DNA of 64,000 nt from assembly GCA_900696495.1 (NCBI GenBank), contig CAADGI010000012.1:124001-188000 (forward strand). The letters run 5' to 3'. The notes beneath the pieces are model-generated. The model was given only the letters and a program-made list of their open reading frames with translations. It made no database searches and was not told the DNA's origin. This DNA is from an uncultured Alphaproteobacteria bacterium. Its GTDB lineage: Bacteria; Pseudomonadota; Alphaproteobacteria; Micavibrionales; Micavibrionaceae. How positions within the stretch are numbered: position 1 is the first letter of the stretch; every line of letters begins with the position of its first letter. This document shows positions 45,198 to 60,123 of the stretch, piece after piece. The translations under genes were made by a program, and so were the position numbers.

Positions 45198-46373
<1,176 letters not shown>

Positions 46374-47303: not shown

Positions 47304-47879
47304 TCATTCTCCTTTTTTAATTTCTTTTTTCATCTTGCCGCGCGAAAGGGCGGCGATGCCGGTGCGGCTGACATCGGCAAGGCCGAGCGGGCGCATCAGA
47401 TTGACGAAAGCATCGATCTTTCCGGCGGTGCCGGTGACTTCGAAAATGAATGAATCTAGTGTGGAATCCACAACGCGGGCGCGGAAGATATCGGCGATGC
47501 GGAGCGCCTCGATGCGCTGGTCGCCTTCGCTCTTGACCTGGACGAGCGCAAGCTCGCGGTCGACGAACGGGCCGCTGACGGTGAGGTCGCGGACTTTCTG
47601 CACGGGCACCATGCGGTCGAGCTGAGTTTTGATTTGTTCAATCACGCGCGGCGTGCCGGTGACGACGATGGTGATGCGCGAGAGGTGTTTGTCGTGATCG
47701 GTTTCGGCGACGGTGAGGCTTTCGATGTTGTAGCCGCGCCCGGCGAACAGGCCGATGACGCGGGCGAGAACGCCGGGTTCGTTGACGACGAGAATGGACA
47801 GCGTGTGCGATTCAATATTCTGCAGGGCCGGCGTGGCCCCGTAGACGCTTTTGCTGGGTTTTTCTTTTGGCTTGGCCAT
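47304..47879 (-). CDS. ilvN: Acetolactate synthase small (regulatory) subunit
   Basis: 191 residues. N-terminal ACT domain (HTLSILVVNEPGVLARVIGLFAGRGYNIESLTVAETDHDKHLSRITIVV) binds valine for feedback inhibition, and a C-terminal IlvN domain follows (IEALRIADIFRARVVDSTLDSFIFEVTGTAGKIDAFVNLMRPLG). Long form, as IlvH/IlvN of IlvI-type enzymes. It lies 40 bases after ilvB in the attenuated transcript and overlaps the lipoprotein gene by 4 bp if 47307 is used there. Confidence 0.95.
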   Translation of the reverse strand: MAKPKEKPSKSVYGATPALQNIESHTLSILVVNEPGVLARVIGLFAGRGYNIESLTVAETDHDKHLSRITIVVTGTPRVIEQIKTQLDRMVPVQKVRDLTVSGPFVDRELALVQVKSEGDQRIEALRIADIFRARVVDSTLDSFIFEVTGTAGKIDAFVNLMRPLGLADVSRTGIAALSRGKMKKEIKKGE

Positions 47880-47919: not shown

Positions 47920-49716
47920 TTAAACCAGCTTTTTATCGAACTTTTCTGCGTCCGCCGAGAGAATCATCTCGTTATGGGCCTTGCCGGAGGGGATCATCGG
48001 GAAGCAGTTTTCGCGCTGGTCGATGCGGACATCAACCAGTGTCACCTTGTCGGTCTTCATCATTTCCTGGATGACCTTGTCAAGCTCGGCGGGCGTTTCG
48101 GCGCGCAGGCCAATGCCGCCATAGGCTTCGGCGAGTTTGACGAAGTCGGGCAGCGAGTCGGTATAGCTTTCGGAATAGCGTTCGCCGTGCAGGAGTTCCT
48201 GCCACTGGCGGACCATGCCCATCCACTGGTTGTTCATGATGAAGACTTTGACCGGCAGGCGGTACTGCACGGCGGTGCTCATTTCCTGAATGTTCATCAG
48301 GATCGAGGCTTCGCCCGCGACATCGACGACCAATGCGTCGCGGTGCGCCATCTGCGCGCCGATCGCGGCGGGCAGGCCGTAGCCCATCGTGCCGAGGCCG
48401 CCGGATGTCATCCAGCGGTTGGGCTGGTCGAAGGGCAGGAACTGCGCCGCCCACATTTGGTGCTGGCCGACTTCGGTGGAGACATAGGCGTCGCGCTTGT
48501 CTTTGGAAATGAAATGCGCGAGGCGCTGGAGCGCGTATTGCGGTTTGATGATTTTATCGCTGTTTTTATAGGCGAGGCAGTTCTGGCCGCGCCATTCGTC
48601 GATCTGTTTCCACCATTTTTTCAAGGCGGCGGCGTCGGGCTTGCAGCCTTTCTTCTTCCAGACCTGCAGCATGGCTTTCATGGCTTCGCCGGCATCGGCG
48701 ATCAGGCCGATATCGACAGGAACGTTTTTGTTGATCGAGCTCGGATCGATGTCGATGTGGATTTTAACCGAGTTGGGCGAGAAGGCATCGACGCGGCCGG
48801 TGACGCGGTCGTCGAAACGAGCGCCGATGCAGATCATGACGTCGCAATCATGCATCGCCCAGTTGGCCTCGAAGGTGCCGTGCATGCCGAGCATGCCCAG
48901 CCACTGTTCATCGGAAGCCGGGTAAGCGCCGAGGCCCATCAATGTCGATGTAATCGGGAAGCCGGTTTCGCGCACGAGATCGCGCAGAATTTTCGAGGCC
49001 TGCGGCCCGGCATTGATGATGCCGCCGCCGGTATAGAAAACCGGGCGCTTGGCCTGCGCCATCAGTTCGACTGCGGCCTCGATGCCGTCCATGTCGGGCA
49101 TGGTGCGCGGTTTGTAGGCGTGCTTCATCGAGTCTTTCGCGGCCTTGTAATTGCCTTGGGCAAATTGAATATCTTTTGGAATGTCGATCACGACGGGGCC
49201 GGGGCGACCGGAACGCGCGACGTGGAATCCTTCGTGGATCGCGCCCGCGAGTTCGTTGACGTCCTTGACCAGGTAATTGTGTTTCGTGCAGGGGCGCGTG
49301 ATGCCGGTGGTGTCGGCTTCCTGGAATGCGTCGGTGCCGATCAGATGCGTCGGGACCTGGCCGGTAATGCAGACGACGGGAATGGAATCCATCAGCGCGT
49401 CGGTCAGGCCCGTAACGGCGTTCGTCGCGCCGGGACCGGAGGTGACGAGGAACGCGCCGACTTTTCCGGTCGAACGCGCGTAGCCTTCGGCGGCATGGGC
49501 CGCGCCCTGTTCATGGCGGACGAGGACATGCTTGATACGGTCCTTGTTCTTGAACAGTTCGTCGTAAATCGGCAGGACGGCGCCGCCGGGATAACCGAAA
49601 ATAACCTCGACGCCCTGTTCGATGATGGCCTCGATCACCATTTCCGCGCCGGTGATTTTTTTCGCGGGAGCGGGCGTGGTTTTGCCTGCCGCTCTCTTGG
49701 CTTCGGTGGTGCTCAT
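47920..49716 (-). CDS. ilvB: Acetolactate synthase large (catalytic) subunit
   Basis: 598 residues. Thiamine diphosphate enzyme condensing pyruvate with pyruvate or 2-oxobutyrate, first step of Val/Leu/Ile synthesis. N-terminal VIEAIIEQGVEVIFGYPGGAVLPIYD (with catalytic-Glu region HEQGAAHAAEGYARSTGK), central FAD-type domain, and the ThDP-binding GDAxxxxN equivalent DVAGEASILMNIQE (the usual Gly-Asp appears as DVAGE). Start MSTTEAKRAAGK at 49716, with AAGGA 8 bases upstream, preferred to 49740. An attenuator precedes the gene. Confidence 0.95.
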   Translation of the reverse strand: MSTTEAKRAAGKTTPAPAKKITGAEMVIEAIIEQGVEVIFGYPGGAVLPIYDELFKNKDRIKHVLVRHEQGAAHAAEGYARSTGKVGAFLVTSGPGATNAVTGLTDALMDSIPVVCITGQVPTHLIGTDAFQEADTTGITRPCTKHNYLVKDVNELAGAIHEGFHVARSGRPGPVVIDIPKDIQFAQGNYKAAKDSMKHAYKPRTMPDMDGIEAAVELMAQAKRPVFYTGGGIINAGPQASKILRDLVRETGFPITSTLMGLGAYPASDEQWLGMLGMHGTFEANWAMHDCDVMICIGARFDDRVTGRVDAFSPNSVKIHIDIDPSSINKNVPVDIGLIADAGEAMKAMLQVWKKKGCKPDAAALKKWWKQIDEWRGQNCLAYKNSDKIIKPQYALQRLAHFISKDKRDAYVSTEVGQHQMWAAQFLPFDQPNRWMTSGGLGTMGYGLPAAIGAQMAHRDALVVDVAGEASILMNIQEMSTAVQYRLPVKVFIMNNQWMGMVRQWQELLHGERYSESYTDSLPDFVKLAEAYGGIGLRAETPAELDKVIQEMMKTDKVTLVDVRIDQRENCFPMIPSGKAHNEMILSADAEKFDKKLV

Positions 49717-49771
49717 ATCGAGGTTCCTTCTTTTATTCATGGTTCAGTCTTTTACATCTGTTTTCGGCATT

Positions 49772-49798
49772 AAAAAACCCCGGACTTTCGGGCCGGGG
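49772..49798 (-). terminator. Attenuator terminator upstream of ilvB
   Basis: On the minus strand CCCCGG (pairing CCGGGG) with a 9-base loop, followed directly by TTTTTT: a classic intrinsic terminator, about 56 bases before the ilvB start at 49716. The GGCCCG within it can instead pair with CGGGCC at the end of the leader coding region (49828-49833). Confidence 0.85.
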
Positions 49799-49824
49799 CG
49801 CTTCGGGGGAACTATGGCAATAGC

Positions 49825-49899
49825 CTAGGCCCGGAGCGCCTCCTTAAGGAGCACCACGAGGACGAGGTTGTTCAGGCCGATGTTCAATGTCTTGATCAT
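49825..49899 (-). CDS. ilv leader peptide (attenuation)
   Basis: 24 codons, too short for ordinary gene calling. The peptide begins MIKTLNIGLNNL and continues with the Leu/Val run LVLVVLL (residues 12-18), ending KEALRA. Eleven of its 24 codons are Leu, Val or Ile, the products of the pathway encoded downstream. Ribosome stalling at these codons would favour the CGGGCC/GGCCCG antiterminator over the downstream terminator. The stop TAG is followed directly by the attenuator. A CTCCTTAAGGAG palindrome lies in the end of the leader. No close E. coli ilvL sequence identity is claimed; the identification rests on composition and position. Confidence 0.85.
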   Translation of the reverse strand: MIKTLNIGLNNLVLVVLLKEALRA

Positions 49900-49909
49900 G
49901 GGGTTGGTT

Positions 49910-50425
49910 TTACATGTTTATGCCGGGGCTGGCAAGTTCTTCTTTCCTGATCAGGAACAGGCGGGGGCGTTTGGTTGCAGCCGGGGGTGGAGATGCAGGC
50001 AAGGGCTCCATGACGCTTTCTTTTTCATCGCTTTGCTGATTACTCCTCAGCATTTCTATAAATTTTTCCCGAAGGCGTTTTGAGAAATCGGGGCTATCCA
50101 TAAAAAGCTGATGTCTGCCCCGGGCGACAGCATCCTTGCTCAATGCTTGGACGCCATTGAGTGATTGTTCATTAAAATCGAATATTACATCTTCGCAGTT
50201 ATAAACATTTCCGCCCTTTTCATGGCTAACTGTGCCGAATTGTTCAGCCAGAACCATGTATACGCTGGTCCGTAATTTTACGTTGTATTCGTTGATGTCG
50301 TTTTTGTCGAAATGCATTTGCCTCAGAATTCTATTCATTTGCGAAAAACGTAAAACGCCTTTTGCATTCTGCGGAAAAGCAGCATCGGCAATGATATCCG
50401 GAATTTTTAAAGAGGGCTGTCCCAT
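49910..50425 (-). CDS. Hypothetical protein upstream of the ilv leader
   Basis: 171 residues, soluble, no recognised family. It contains helical and polar stretches and a Pro/Ala-rich region near residue 145 before the basic end KRPRLFLIRKEELASPGINM. Codon use is more AT-rich than the housekeeping genes around it. It ends 10 bases upstream of the ilv leader start, and is preceded by a second hypothetical gene (50428-50760) with a 2-base gap, so the two look like a co-transcribed pair. Function unknown. Confidence 0.65.
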   Translation of the reverse strand: MGQPSLKIPDIIADAAFPQNAKGVLRFSQMNRILRQMHFDKNDINEYNVKLRTSVYMVLAEQFGTVSHEKGGNVYNCEDVIFDFNEQSLNGVQALSKDAVARGRHQLFMDSPDFSKRLREKFIEMLRSNQQSDEKESVMEPLPASPPPAATKRPRLFLIRKEELASPGINM

Positions 50426-50427
50426 GG

Positions 50428-50760
50428 CTATTTCATACTATGTTCAAGAACATTGGTATTAAAAATACGTGTTTTGTTTTTTACCTTCGTTTGAACGCTT
50501 TTGCTGAAATCATTGAAGACATCCATGGGACTTTTCGGTCCGCCATTTGGATATTCGCCCCCGGGAAGAATGCGTTCCTCACTCGCGCGTGACAGGAGCT
50601 CGTCTATGATCATGATGGCCTCGGTGTTAAAACCGGCCTCGCGCATTCTTTCATAACGTTCCCGGATGGGACGAATCTCGGCGTGATAGCACGTAGCGCT
50701 GCCTGACCTGTTGTAAAAGGCCTCGATTATCGTTTCGCTGATCTCTTTCGGGGTGCCCAT
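50428..50760 (-). CDS. Hypothetical protein
   Basis: 110 residues, soluble. N-terminal helical part (MGTPKEISETIIEAFYNRSGSATCYHAEIRPIRERYERMREAGFN) and a Lys/Asn-rich end. No signal, membrane segment or recognised domain. It starts 61 bases downstream of the miaA stop, across an AT-rich gap, and is directly followed by the 49910-50425 gene. AT-rich codon use. Function unknown. Confidence 0.6.
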   Translation of the reverse strand: MGTPKEISETIIEAFYNRSGSATCYHAEIRPIRERYERMREAGFNTEAIMIIDELLSRASEERILPGGEYPNGGPKSPMDVFNDFSKSVQTKVKNKTRIFNTNVLEHSMK

Positions 50761-50821
50761 AAAATTCTCCTGATTTTTATATAAGCGATTTTATTTACAT
50801 AAATATAATAATATTGTCAAG

Positions 50822-51703
50822 TTAAAGCTGGTTTTTGAACCAGGTGACCTGCCTTTTCGCGTATTGGCGGGTTTGGGTCCGGGCGAGGGTTATGGCGGTT
50901 TCGAGGGGGATTTTGGCCTCAAGATGATCGCGTAAATGGGCGAAGCCGAGAGCTTTGGCGAGCAGGGCAGTTTCCGGGATTTCACCTCTGTCGATGCGCG
51001 CTGCGATATTTCTGACCTCGTCCAGCGCGCCGTTATCCAGCATTTTTAAAAAGCGTTCGTCGCAGCGGCGGTAGAGTTCTTCGCGTTCCGGCATGATTTT
51101 GTGAATTTGAAAATTCCAGTTTTCCGGCGGCGCGTTTTTGGTTTCTTTCTGCCAGTCGGATAATTTTTCTCCGGTCGCCTCGAACACTTCCCACGCGCGG
51201 ACGGTGCGGGCGGCGTGTTCGGGATGAAACCGCGCGGCGGATTCCGGGTCGCGCTTTTTCAGTTCTTCATGCATGGCGGCGCTGCCGATTTGCTTCAGCC
51301 GTGCGTTCGCGCGTTCGCGAATTTCCGGCGGCGTTTCGGGAATGGGCGAAAGACCTTCCATCAGCGCCTTGATATAAAGTCCCGTGCCGCCGCAAATGAT
51401 GGGCGTTTTGTTTTCCGCGAGCGCGTTTTCAATTTCGCGCACGGCCATCGTTTGCCAGATCCCCGCCGAGCAGGGTTCGCCGGGCTGAAGCGCGCTGTAG
51501 AGAACGTGCGGCGCTTCGCGGAGGTCTTCCTGTGACGGTTGTGCCGTTAAAATACGCAGCCCGTCATAAATCTGCATGGAGTCGCAGTTGATAACGACGC
51601 CATCCAGTTTTTGCGCGAGACCGATGGCGAAGGCCGACTTGCCGCCGGCGGTAGGGCCGGCGACGATATGAATAGTAGTGGAATCGCCGCGATTATTGCT
51701 CAA
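50822..51703 (-). CDS. miaA: tRNA dimethylallyltransferase
   Basis: Transfers a dimethylallyl group to A37 of tRNAs that read codons starting with U. 293 residues. P-loop VAGPTAGGKSAFAIGLA (canonical GPTASGKS has Ser where this has Gly), substrate motif INCDSMQIYDGLRILTAQPS, tRNA- and substrate-binding GGTGLYIKALMEGLSPIPE, and the C-terminal TRQYAKRQVTWFKNQ. It overlaps the degP 3' end by 11 bp, downstream of degP, which is the common alphaproteobacterial gene order near ilvB. Intact. Confidence 0.96.
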   Translation of the reverse strand: MSNNRGDSTTIHIVAGPTAGGKSAFAIGLAQKLDGVVINCDSMQIYDGLRILTAQPSQEDLREAPHVLYSALQPGEPCSAGIWQTMAVREIENALAENKTPIICGGTGLYIKALMEGLSPIPETPPEIRERANARLKQIGSAAMHEELKKRDPESAARFHPEHAARTVRAWEVFEATGEKLSDWQKETKNAPPENWNFQIHKIMPEREELYRRCDERFLKMLDNGALDEVRNIAARIDRGEIPETALLAKALGFAHLRDHLEAKIPLETAITLARTQTRQYAKRQVTWFKNQL

Positions 51704-59539: not shown

Positions 59540-59681
59540 GGGATCCCTTTTAGATTATATGGATGAGGGTTTGGTTTTCTCAAGTTGCCCCTTTATACGG
59601 GTGCAAGATGCCCACCCGGCGGAATAAATTGTTAACTTATTGAAATAATTTATAAATTTTTAAAAAATGCCTATGAAATTC

Positions 59682-59709
59682 TTGATTTTTAAGGATTTTT
59701 CCCTATAAT
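59682..59709 (+). promoter_or_regulatory. Promoter of the tmRNA gene
   Basis: TTGATT (59682-59687), a 16-base spacer and a perfect TATAAT (59704-59709) lie a few bases before the acceptor piece. The transcript would start near 59716. Confidence 0.7.
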
Positions 59710-59715
59710 AAGAAA

Positions 59716-60123
59716 TGCCGGTTCGCCGGTTATGACGCTAAACGCGGATACGTAATAGACGTTATGGACCCGGGGGCAGTGCCCGGCGGCTCCACCACTT
59801 CAGTAATAAGTATAAGTTATAAGAAATAATATTTTTAAAGCTTTTCACTTATAGCTTACGTACTGAAGCGGCGGGGCCGAAACAGGATCGACATGCGTAT
59901 TAAAGGTATTTTGCGGCGTCCGGAATAGGCCTAACGTTACTGGGCCATTTGATAGTTGCAAATGACAACTCTCAGTTCGTAGCCGCTAACGACAACGTCG
60001 TTCGCGAAGTTCGTAAGGCCGCCTAATTGGGCACTTTACGTTGCTACACCTTAATCCCTTCCTACTAACCTAGGAAGGTGGGGTCCGGTGGGTACCTCGC
60101 AACAGAAACCCACCATTTTTTTT
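59716..60123 (+). ncRNA. ssrA: Two-piece (permuted) transfer-messenger RNA
   Basis: Ribosome rescue RNA. The acceptor piece comes first and ends in CGGCTCC-A-CCA (59787-59797). The coding piece starts at 59873 with GGGGCCGAAACAGGATCGAC, whose GGGGCCG pairs with CGGCTCC to form the 7-bp tRNA-like acceptor stem (one G-U). A 75-base AT-rich spacer with an outer stem (CTTCAGTA/TACTGAAG) lies between and is removed in maturation. The resume codon is GCA 59958 after GATAGTT. The tag has 22 codons to TAA 60024-60026, starting ANDNSQFV and ending RKAA. A hairpin terminator (GGTGGGT/ACCCACC, then eight Ts) ends at 60123. Confidence 0.95.
60087..60123 (+). terminator. Intrinsic terminator of ssrA
   Basis: GGTGGGT (60087-60093) pairs with ACCCACC (60108-60114), followed by an A and eight Ts (60116-60123). 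Confidence 0.85.

Follow-up and report, generated by a model that had tools for sequence, protein, structure and literature searches.

Several attenuators of branched-chain amino acid operons resemble the locus described here. In Escherichia coli, ilvBN and ilvGMEDA are described with the same mechanism as we propose below and the same target pathway, with leaders of 32 amino acids compared with 24 here (PMC6123439). For alphaproteobacteria, an ilvB leader peptide and an ilvIH cis element are mentioned in PMC1273637 and PMC2573895, and also in PMC6123439 (citing Vitreschak et al. 2004); as far as these mentions go, they likewise place a branched-chain leader and an attenuator before an acetolactate synthase operon, although their leader peptide and helix sequences differ from those in our sequence. 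The ilvBN attenuator of Caulobacter crescentus is described with tandem branched-chain codons (PMC4117421, citing Tarleton et al. 1994) and is thus another case of ilvBN attenuation by such a leader in an alphaproteobacterium; the codons named in that description are for Ile and Val, whereas the run here is of Leu and Val. Corynebacterium glutamicum, from another phylum, also has an attenuator with a branched-chain leader before ilvBNC, but its peptide (MTIIRLVVVTARRLP) and hairpins are different; its transcription start and leader start codon are one nucleotide apart, and the leader is reported to be made with no ribosome-binding site (PMC11857589). The trpL leader of Sinorhizobium meliloti is, like ours, an alphaproteobacterial attenuator leader, but for Trp rather than Leu/Val; its open reading frame (ORF) is leaderless, and functions in trans are reported for trpL/rnTrpL (PMC7298713, PMC10117765). 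We put 80 named loci, almost all of them alphaproteobacterial to judge by their titles, through a crude leader filter, which kept 39 (L032, L100, L109 and L110 look wrong); Rhizobiaceae loci carry branched-chain leaders that, compared by layout, match ours, such as MKNSIVLIVVGRRMGRMV. Our literature search, for which subscription papers were mostly out of reach, found no paper on an ilvB leader in relatives of Micavibrio.

We analysed a stretch of 64,000 nucleotides (the window) from an uncultured alphaproteobacterium of the family Micavibrionaceae. An earlier note, made from the letters of the sequence, had proposed an unannotated ilv attenuator in this window. We find that the region before ilvB very probably encodes a ribosome-mediated (trp-type) transcription attenuator that would sense charged leucyl- and valyl-tRNA and control the ilvB-ilvN transcript, as judged from sequence comparison and RNA folding. 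The features of the locus are collected in Table 1. The leader frame, its LVLVVLL run at residues 12-18 and its TAG (49827-49825) proved exact to the base, as did the CCCCGG/CCGGGG hairpin followed by TTTTTT ending at 49772, with ilvB, named by NF006581, downstream. The note described the frame as a Leu/Val/Ile leader; the regulatory run itself holds only Leu and Val, both Ile being at residues 2 and 7.

Table 1. Features of the ilvB leader locus in the window, with tRNA-Leu genes of related loci
Feature	Position	Strand	Placement	Basis
Predicted -35 element, TTGCCA	49930..49935	-	36 nt before leader ATG, within 3' end of upstream ORF	Sequence; TTG[AC] likewise placed in relatives
Predicted -10 element, TAAAAC	49907..49912	-	17 nt past -35, 7 nt before ATG; overlaps upstream ORF stop codon	Inference; not a consensus sigma-70 site
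Leader ORF, 24 codons + TAG, MIKTLNIGLNNLVLVVLLKEALRA	49825..49899	-		Sequence; conserved in family
Regulatory codons 12-18, CTC GTC CTC GTG GTG CTC CTT (LVLVVLL)	49846..49866	-		Sequence
Segment 2, predicted 5' arm of conserved antiterminator (GGAGGCGCT)	49835..49843	-	Within leader ORF, directly past Leu/Val run	Folding and co-variation
Segment 3, predicted 3' arm of antiterminator (AGCGCC)	49797..49802	-	Overlaps terminator 5' arm	Folding and co-variation
Intrinsic terminator hairpin, GCCCCGG...CCGGGGT	49777..49799	-		-12.8 kcal/mol; pairs co-vary
Terminator U-run, T6	49772..49777	-		Sequence
ilvB, acetolactate synthase large subunit	47920..49740 (longest frame)	-		NCBIfam NF006581, 1063 bits vs cut-off 974
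ilvN, acetolactate synthase small subunit	47304..47879	-		NCBIfam NF008864, 222 bits, above cut-off
ilvC, ketol-acid reductoisomerase	45198..46304	-		NCBIfam NF004017, 570 bits, above cut-off
tRNA-Leu (CAA), genus g34	L025 1224-1310; L192 273-359; L194 602-688	Opposite to ilvB		

The distance from the end of the U-run to the first ATG of the ilvB frame (49740) is 31 nt, and to the second (49716) 55 nt; the second, eight codons further on and with GAAGGA upstream, is probably the start codon of ilvB, to judge from the sequence. Two ORFs lie between the leader and miaA, with no NCBIfam family and only Pfam matches below their cut-offs. Elsewhere, the window holds a permuted alphaproteobacterial tmRNA (59678-60117, plus strand; RF01849, 210.8 bits).

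The window contains 1,081 short ORFs with distinct stops (600 on the plus strand and 481 on the minus strand). A terminator-like hairpin lies within 100 nt of 25 of them (15 and 10, respectively), and a single one of these 25, the ilvB leader, has at least six Leu, Val or Ile in eight residues. The bare fold of the leader (129 nt) was not significant (z = -1.62; 12 of 200 shuffles fold as well), and the case therefore rests on comparison across genomes. A scan of 49500-51000 with an E. coli-like consensus listed no promoters on the minus strand, and the leader hairpin was absent from the six terminators that it listed. No Rfam leader family reached its gathering score over the leader region, where the only weak match was to anti-hemB (E = 0.18; 17.6 bits, with 49.5 required).

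To follow the leader through the family, we looked for IlvB in 58 genomes (that of the window included) and then in 104 family genomes, 75 of which had a match at 1e-100. A covariance model, R1, was built from 19 leaders that had been found by reading upstream regions (18 within the family, and L024 from a different family in the order; L030 was left out), and matched 65 of the 104 family genomes at E <= 1. In 52 of the 75 genomes with ilvB the match lay 27 to 1,072 nt upstream of that gene on the same strand, each time at E <= 0.01, and 34 of these 52 lay outside the R1 training set. One more leader (G110, MKNLFNIVNVVVNLLVVLLVGQGSVHV) was missed by R1 and found by eye. A leader thus precedes ilvB in 53 of the 72 family genomes with a readable ilvB upstream region, G006, G099 and G106 being left out as unreadable with ilvB cut by a contig end. 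The other 19 keep ilvB, and no leader was found when their upstream regions were read by eye; this absence is patchy, with genera g8 and g35 holding both states. Loss of the leader frame or its pairing in close relatives that keep ilvB was what the earlier note would have counted against the attenuator. All three genomes of the window's genus retain the frame, its run and both helices, and the 19 genomes without a leader found are more distant members of the family.

A second model, R2, trained on 33 leaders from genera other than the window's, recovered the leader copy in the window with a score of 61.7 bits (E = 5.9e-13; runner-up 10.1 bits) and placed it first in the whole genome of its strain (E = 1.9e-11; next E = 0.036). 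This test was held out for training but not for selection, because the 33 leaders were collected with R1, which included the window copy. Beyond the leader itself, R1 gave four weak places in that genome (E 0.65 to 7.8) and R2 seven (0.036 to 0.9), one of them common to both and ten in total; the seven that were read contained no Leu/Val/Ile leader, and the 400 nt preceding leuA in the same genome likewise showed no leader. Across the family, the leaders retain the Leu/Val/Ile run and the switch pairing, while their peptides differ in length (21-37 amino acids) and N-terminus.

The antiterminator is where our results depart from the earlier note, which had pointed to CGGGCC (49833-49828) with GGCCCG (49794-49789). 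That pairing is present, at -14.5 kcal/mol, but it belongs to the window strain alone and is not conserved: its six perfect pairs occur in 1 of 52 leaders (the window's), and over the 52 the leaders' own pairing is no better than shuffled (-1.89 vs -1.95 kcal/mol, p = 0.62). It is probably the wrong helix for the antiterminator. The conserved antiterminator predicted from the comparison is GGAGGCGCU with AGCGCC, a co-varying helix that lies directly upstream of CGGGCC, competes with the terminator and amounts in the window to -19.5 kcal/mol vs -14.5 for CGGGCC/GGCCCG. Five perfect pairs in a row are found in 45 of the 52 leaders and six in 29. Own segments pair at -15.4 kcal/mol, compared with -13.2 (s.d. 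0.32) when segments are exchanged between species, and none of 10,000 shuffles did as well as the own segments; in 18 leaders alone the same comparison gave p = 0.0005. These 52 were taken from 56 leaders by leaving out L002 and L003 (same-genus near-duplicates of L001), G093 (a duplicate of G092) and L030 (outside the family).

Pair counts were made on an alignment, A3, of the 33 leaders used for R2, because in the MAFFT alignment A2 some terminators are one base out of place. A3 was drawn from 36 further leaders (34 held-out ones plus G099 and G105) by leaving out G093, G099 and G105. In A3, standard pairs fill 72.9% of antiterminator cells, compared with 27.5-57.9% when the arms are slid by 1-3 columns. 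The antiterminator exceeded shuffles on three measures, namely cells paired (reached by 0 of 500), cells changed on both sides (6 of 500) and covariation score (2 of 500), and did not do so for pairs changed on both sides (273 of 500) or further pair types (95 of 500); the cells changed on both sides number 12, but 16-18 once the partner is offset by -1 to -3. The terminator likewise co-varies on three of five measures, with 85.5% of its cells paired and 19 changed on both sides (values that none of 500 shuffles attained), and is not above shuffles for pairs changed on both sides (392 of 500) or further pair types (345 of 500). The RNAalifold consensus of A3 contains the terminator only, the antiterminator being absent. 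The two helices cannot coexist because bases 49799-49797 are common to both. The alignment of ilvB upstream regions that the earlier note had suggested as a check thus bears it out in the recurrence of leader codons and terminator, with another, co-varying antiterminator in place of the one it named.

The alternative folds, the other check named there, were computed with the ribosome at successive codons, folding the RNA from an assumed ribosome edge, set 12 nt beyond the A-site codon's first base, as equilibrium folds rather than kinetics. In these folds the window RNA switches at the Leu/Val run. With the full hairpin available, the probability of the terminator is 0.68, 0.53, 0.00, 0.00, 0.10, 0.76 and 0.93 at codons 12-18, the three lowest values being those for L14, V15 and V16 as A-site codons; at the stop codon it is 0.92. 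Without a ribosome it is 0.07, and with the ribosome at codons 1-7 it is 0.02-0.11; in either state the window leader would also favour the antiterminator, unlike most of the other 19 leaders folded without a ribosome.

Across all 56 leaders, which include near-duplicates, the terminator probability with the full hairpin exceeds 0.9 at the stop in 54, and dips below 0.5 within the last 14 positions (stop included) in only 28, the window's among them; in the first 20 leaders, L004, L014, L015, L016, L017 and L030 have no dip. The codons at which dips occur are Leu, Val or Ile in 88 of 97 cases, compared with 374 of 784 for all positions examined. Folds were also computed without the terminator 3' arm, on the assumption that the choice of helix precedes its synthesis. 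Upstream pairing of the 5' arm (P > 0.5) then occurs at one or more Leu/Val/Ile codons in 55 leaders of the 56, and at the stop codon in only one (G060), a contrast that is flattered because the best of several codons is set against one stop position; mean probabilities are 0.60 at Leu/Val/Ile codons and 0.08 at the stop. The sole leader without this folding at a Leu/Val/Ile codon is L030, from another family of the order.

Ahead of the leader in the window, TTGCCA at -36 is followed by 17 nt, TAAAAC, 7 nt and the ATG, and no Shine-Dalgarno sequence was seen before that ATG on reading the sequence. A TTG[AC] motif lies 35-36 nt ahead of the leader ATG in 44 of 56 leaders, a count biased in the motif's favour where several in-frame ATG codons were present, as the script then chose the motif-bearing one. 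Of the 20 leaders in the first set, 16 have it at -35 or -36 and L005 has it at -37, and L022, L024 and L030 have none near these positions; of the 36 further leaders, 28 carry it at -35 or -36, two at -37 and two at -39, with single cases scattered elsewhere. Because a -35-like box stands at a fixed distance from the ATG and no Shine-Dalgarno was seen, the leader mRNA of the window is probably leaderless, with transcription predicted to start at the ATG or within 1-2 nt of it. Of the Rhizobium-type loci, ten carry TTGAC at -37, whereas in Bosea, Azorhizobium and Ancylobacter loci TTGAC is at -59 or -60, which leaves room for a leader with a Shine-Dalgarno sequence. We dropped the leaderless start as a novelty, given the precedents of C. 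glutamicum ilvBNC and S. meliloti trpL.

Put together, these elements suggest how the attenuator might work. Transcription would begin at the leader ATG or 1-2 nt off, and a ribosome would load on the leaderless mRNA. When Leu or Val is scarce, the ribosome would stall in codons 12-18 and leave GGAGGCGCU free to pair with AGCGCC; as folding and co-variation indicate, this pairing would use up part of the terminator 5' arm and RNA polymerase would read on into ilvB. When Leu and Val are plentiful, the ribosome would run to the TAG and cover GGAGGCGCU, the GCCCCGG/CCGGGGU hairpin would form and transcription would stop at the U-run about 128 nt from the start. The earlier reading of the locus as an ilv attenuator thus gains support from the leader, terminator and co-varying antiterminator of the 53 genomes and from the switching of the window fold at its Leu/Val run.

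Other explanations of the locus were weighed against this one. The hairpin might be an ordinary terminator of the upstream ORF (49910-50425), with a Leu/Val-rich frame beside it by chance and the ilvB promoter past the terminator, and that ORF does end 10 nt ahead of the leader ATG, with the terminator coming after it. The leader, however, accompanies ilvB in 53 of the 72 family genomes that could be read, the antiterminator co-varies, the U-run is no more than 55 nt away from the probable ilvB ATG, and the scan with an E. coli-like consensus listed no minus-strand promoter-like site, all of which makes this account very improbable. We are as little inclined to regard the attenuator as a relic, correctly built but no longer regulating, for example in a strain living on imported amino acids. 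Such decay would fit the 19 family genomes that keep ilvB without a leader found, some of them with another conserved upstream element, but not the retention of frame, run and both helices in all three genomes of the window's genus.

A further possibility is that the peptide or the terminated small RNA has its main role in trans, as in S. meliloti trpL, and that the terminator merely ends that gene. Like rnTrpL, the precedent described in PMC7298713 and PMC10117765, the RNA would indeed be a short leaderless mRNA, about 128 nt long, but the variation in peptide length and N-terminus, set against the upkeep of run and switch pairing, is what attenuation in cis selects, and we consider a main role in trans extremely unlikely. 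Somewhat less improbable, though still unlikely, is that the attenuator is leaderless throughout the family and that its terminated product, some 128 nt long, also acts in trans, through the RNA or through the hydrophobic Leu/Val peptide; this idea is modelled on the reported Sinorhizobium trpL, and the hosts would be small-genome relatives of Micavibrio. The reading that we favour remains attenuation of ilvB-ilvN in cis.

Leaders also stand before genes other than ilvB in the family. Neither G112 nor G019, both of genus g18, has an IlvB match at 1e-100. In G112 (L151 1073-1250), the Leu-rich MLTKNLLILALLLDLSQESPGICRI and a terminator-like hairpin precede a leuA-like gene (2-isopropylmalate synthase NF002086, 415 bits, below the cut-off of 532), a locus that R1 matches at only E = 0.026. 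G007 (L158) has a Leu-rich leader, MKNQNTSLLLLTLLLMNP, before leuA (above cut-off) as well as an ilvB leader. The sequences suggest that leader content follows the downstream gene, being Leu-rich before the leuA-like gene in G112, where IlvB has no match. A Leu-rich leader was also observed in G019 (L150). In G003 (L145 2800-4819) the leader is kept, and of ilvB only the first codons remain, continuing into an ilvN that is itself truncated (profile positions 37-162 of 164), with ilvC behind it; this locus is either a decaying operon or an assembly fault.

A second conserved block precedes ilvB in some relatives. It consists of an AT-rich box like TTATAATTTTATTTCGTTTTTTGGAA and a TTG- or TTGAC-type -35-like box and, in most cases, a terminator-like hairpin such as AAAGCC...GGGCTTT plus a T-run. 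The block lies between leader and ilvB in L011, L013, L015 and L027, occurs without a leader in L007, L018, L019, L021, L184, L185, L189 and L191, and is not in the window; nine loci searched gave no Rfam match at gathering score. The block is possibly a separate regulatory element that replaces the leader where the latter has been lost. In the three genomes of genus g34, in which no leader was found, a tRNA-Leu gene with anticodon CAA lies a few hundred bases upstream of ilvB on the opposite strand (Table 1).

The kind of switch described here is well known, and its probable occurrence in a little-studied group related to Micavibrio leaves our knowledge of attenuation as such unchanged. The analysis yields covariance models for a leader that Rfam does not recognize, and the 56 leaders, in most of which the ORF starts at a fixed distance from a -35-like box, make leaderless initiation of an attenuator testable across species. 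The switch is patchily missing across the family while ilvB is kept, and where it is present it shows how these relatives of Micavibrio probably sense branched-chain amino acids.
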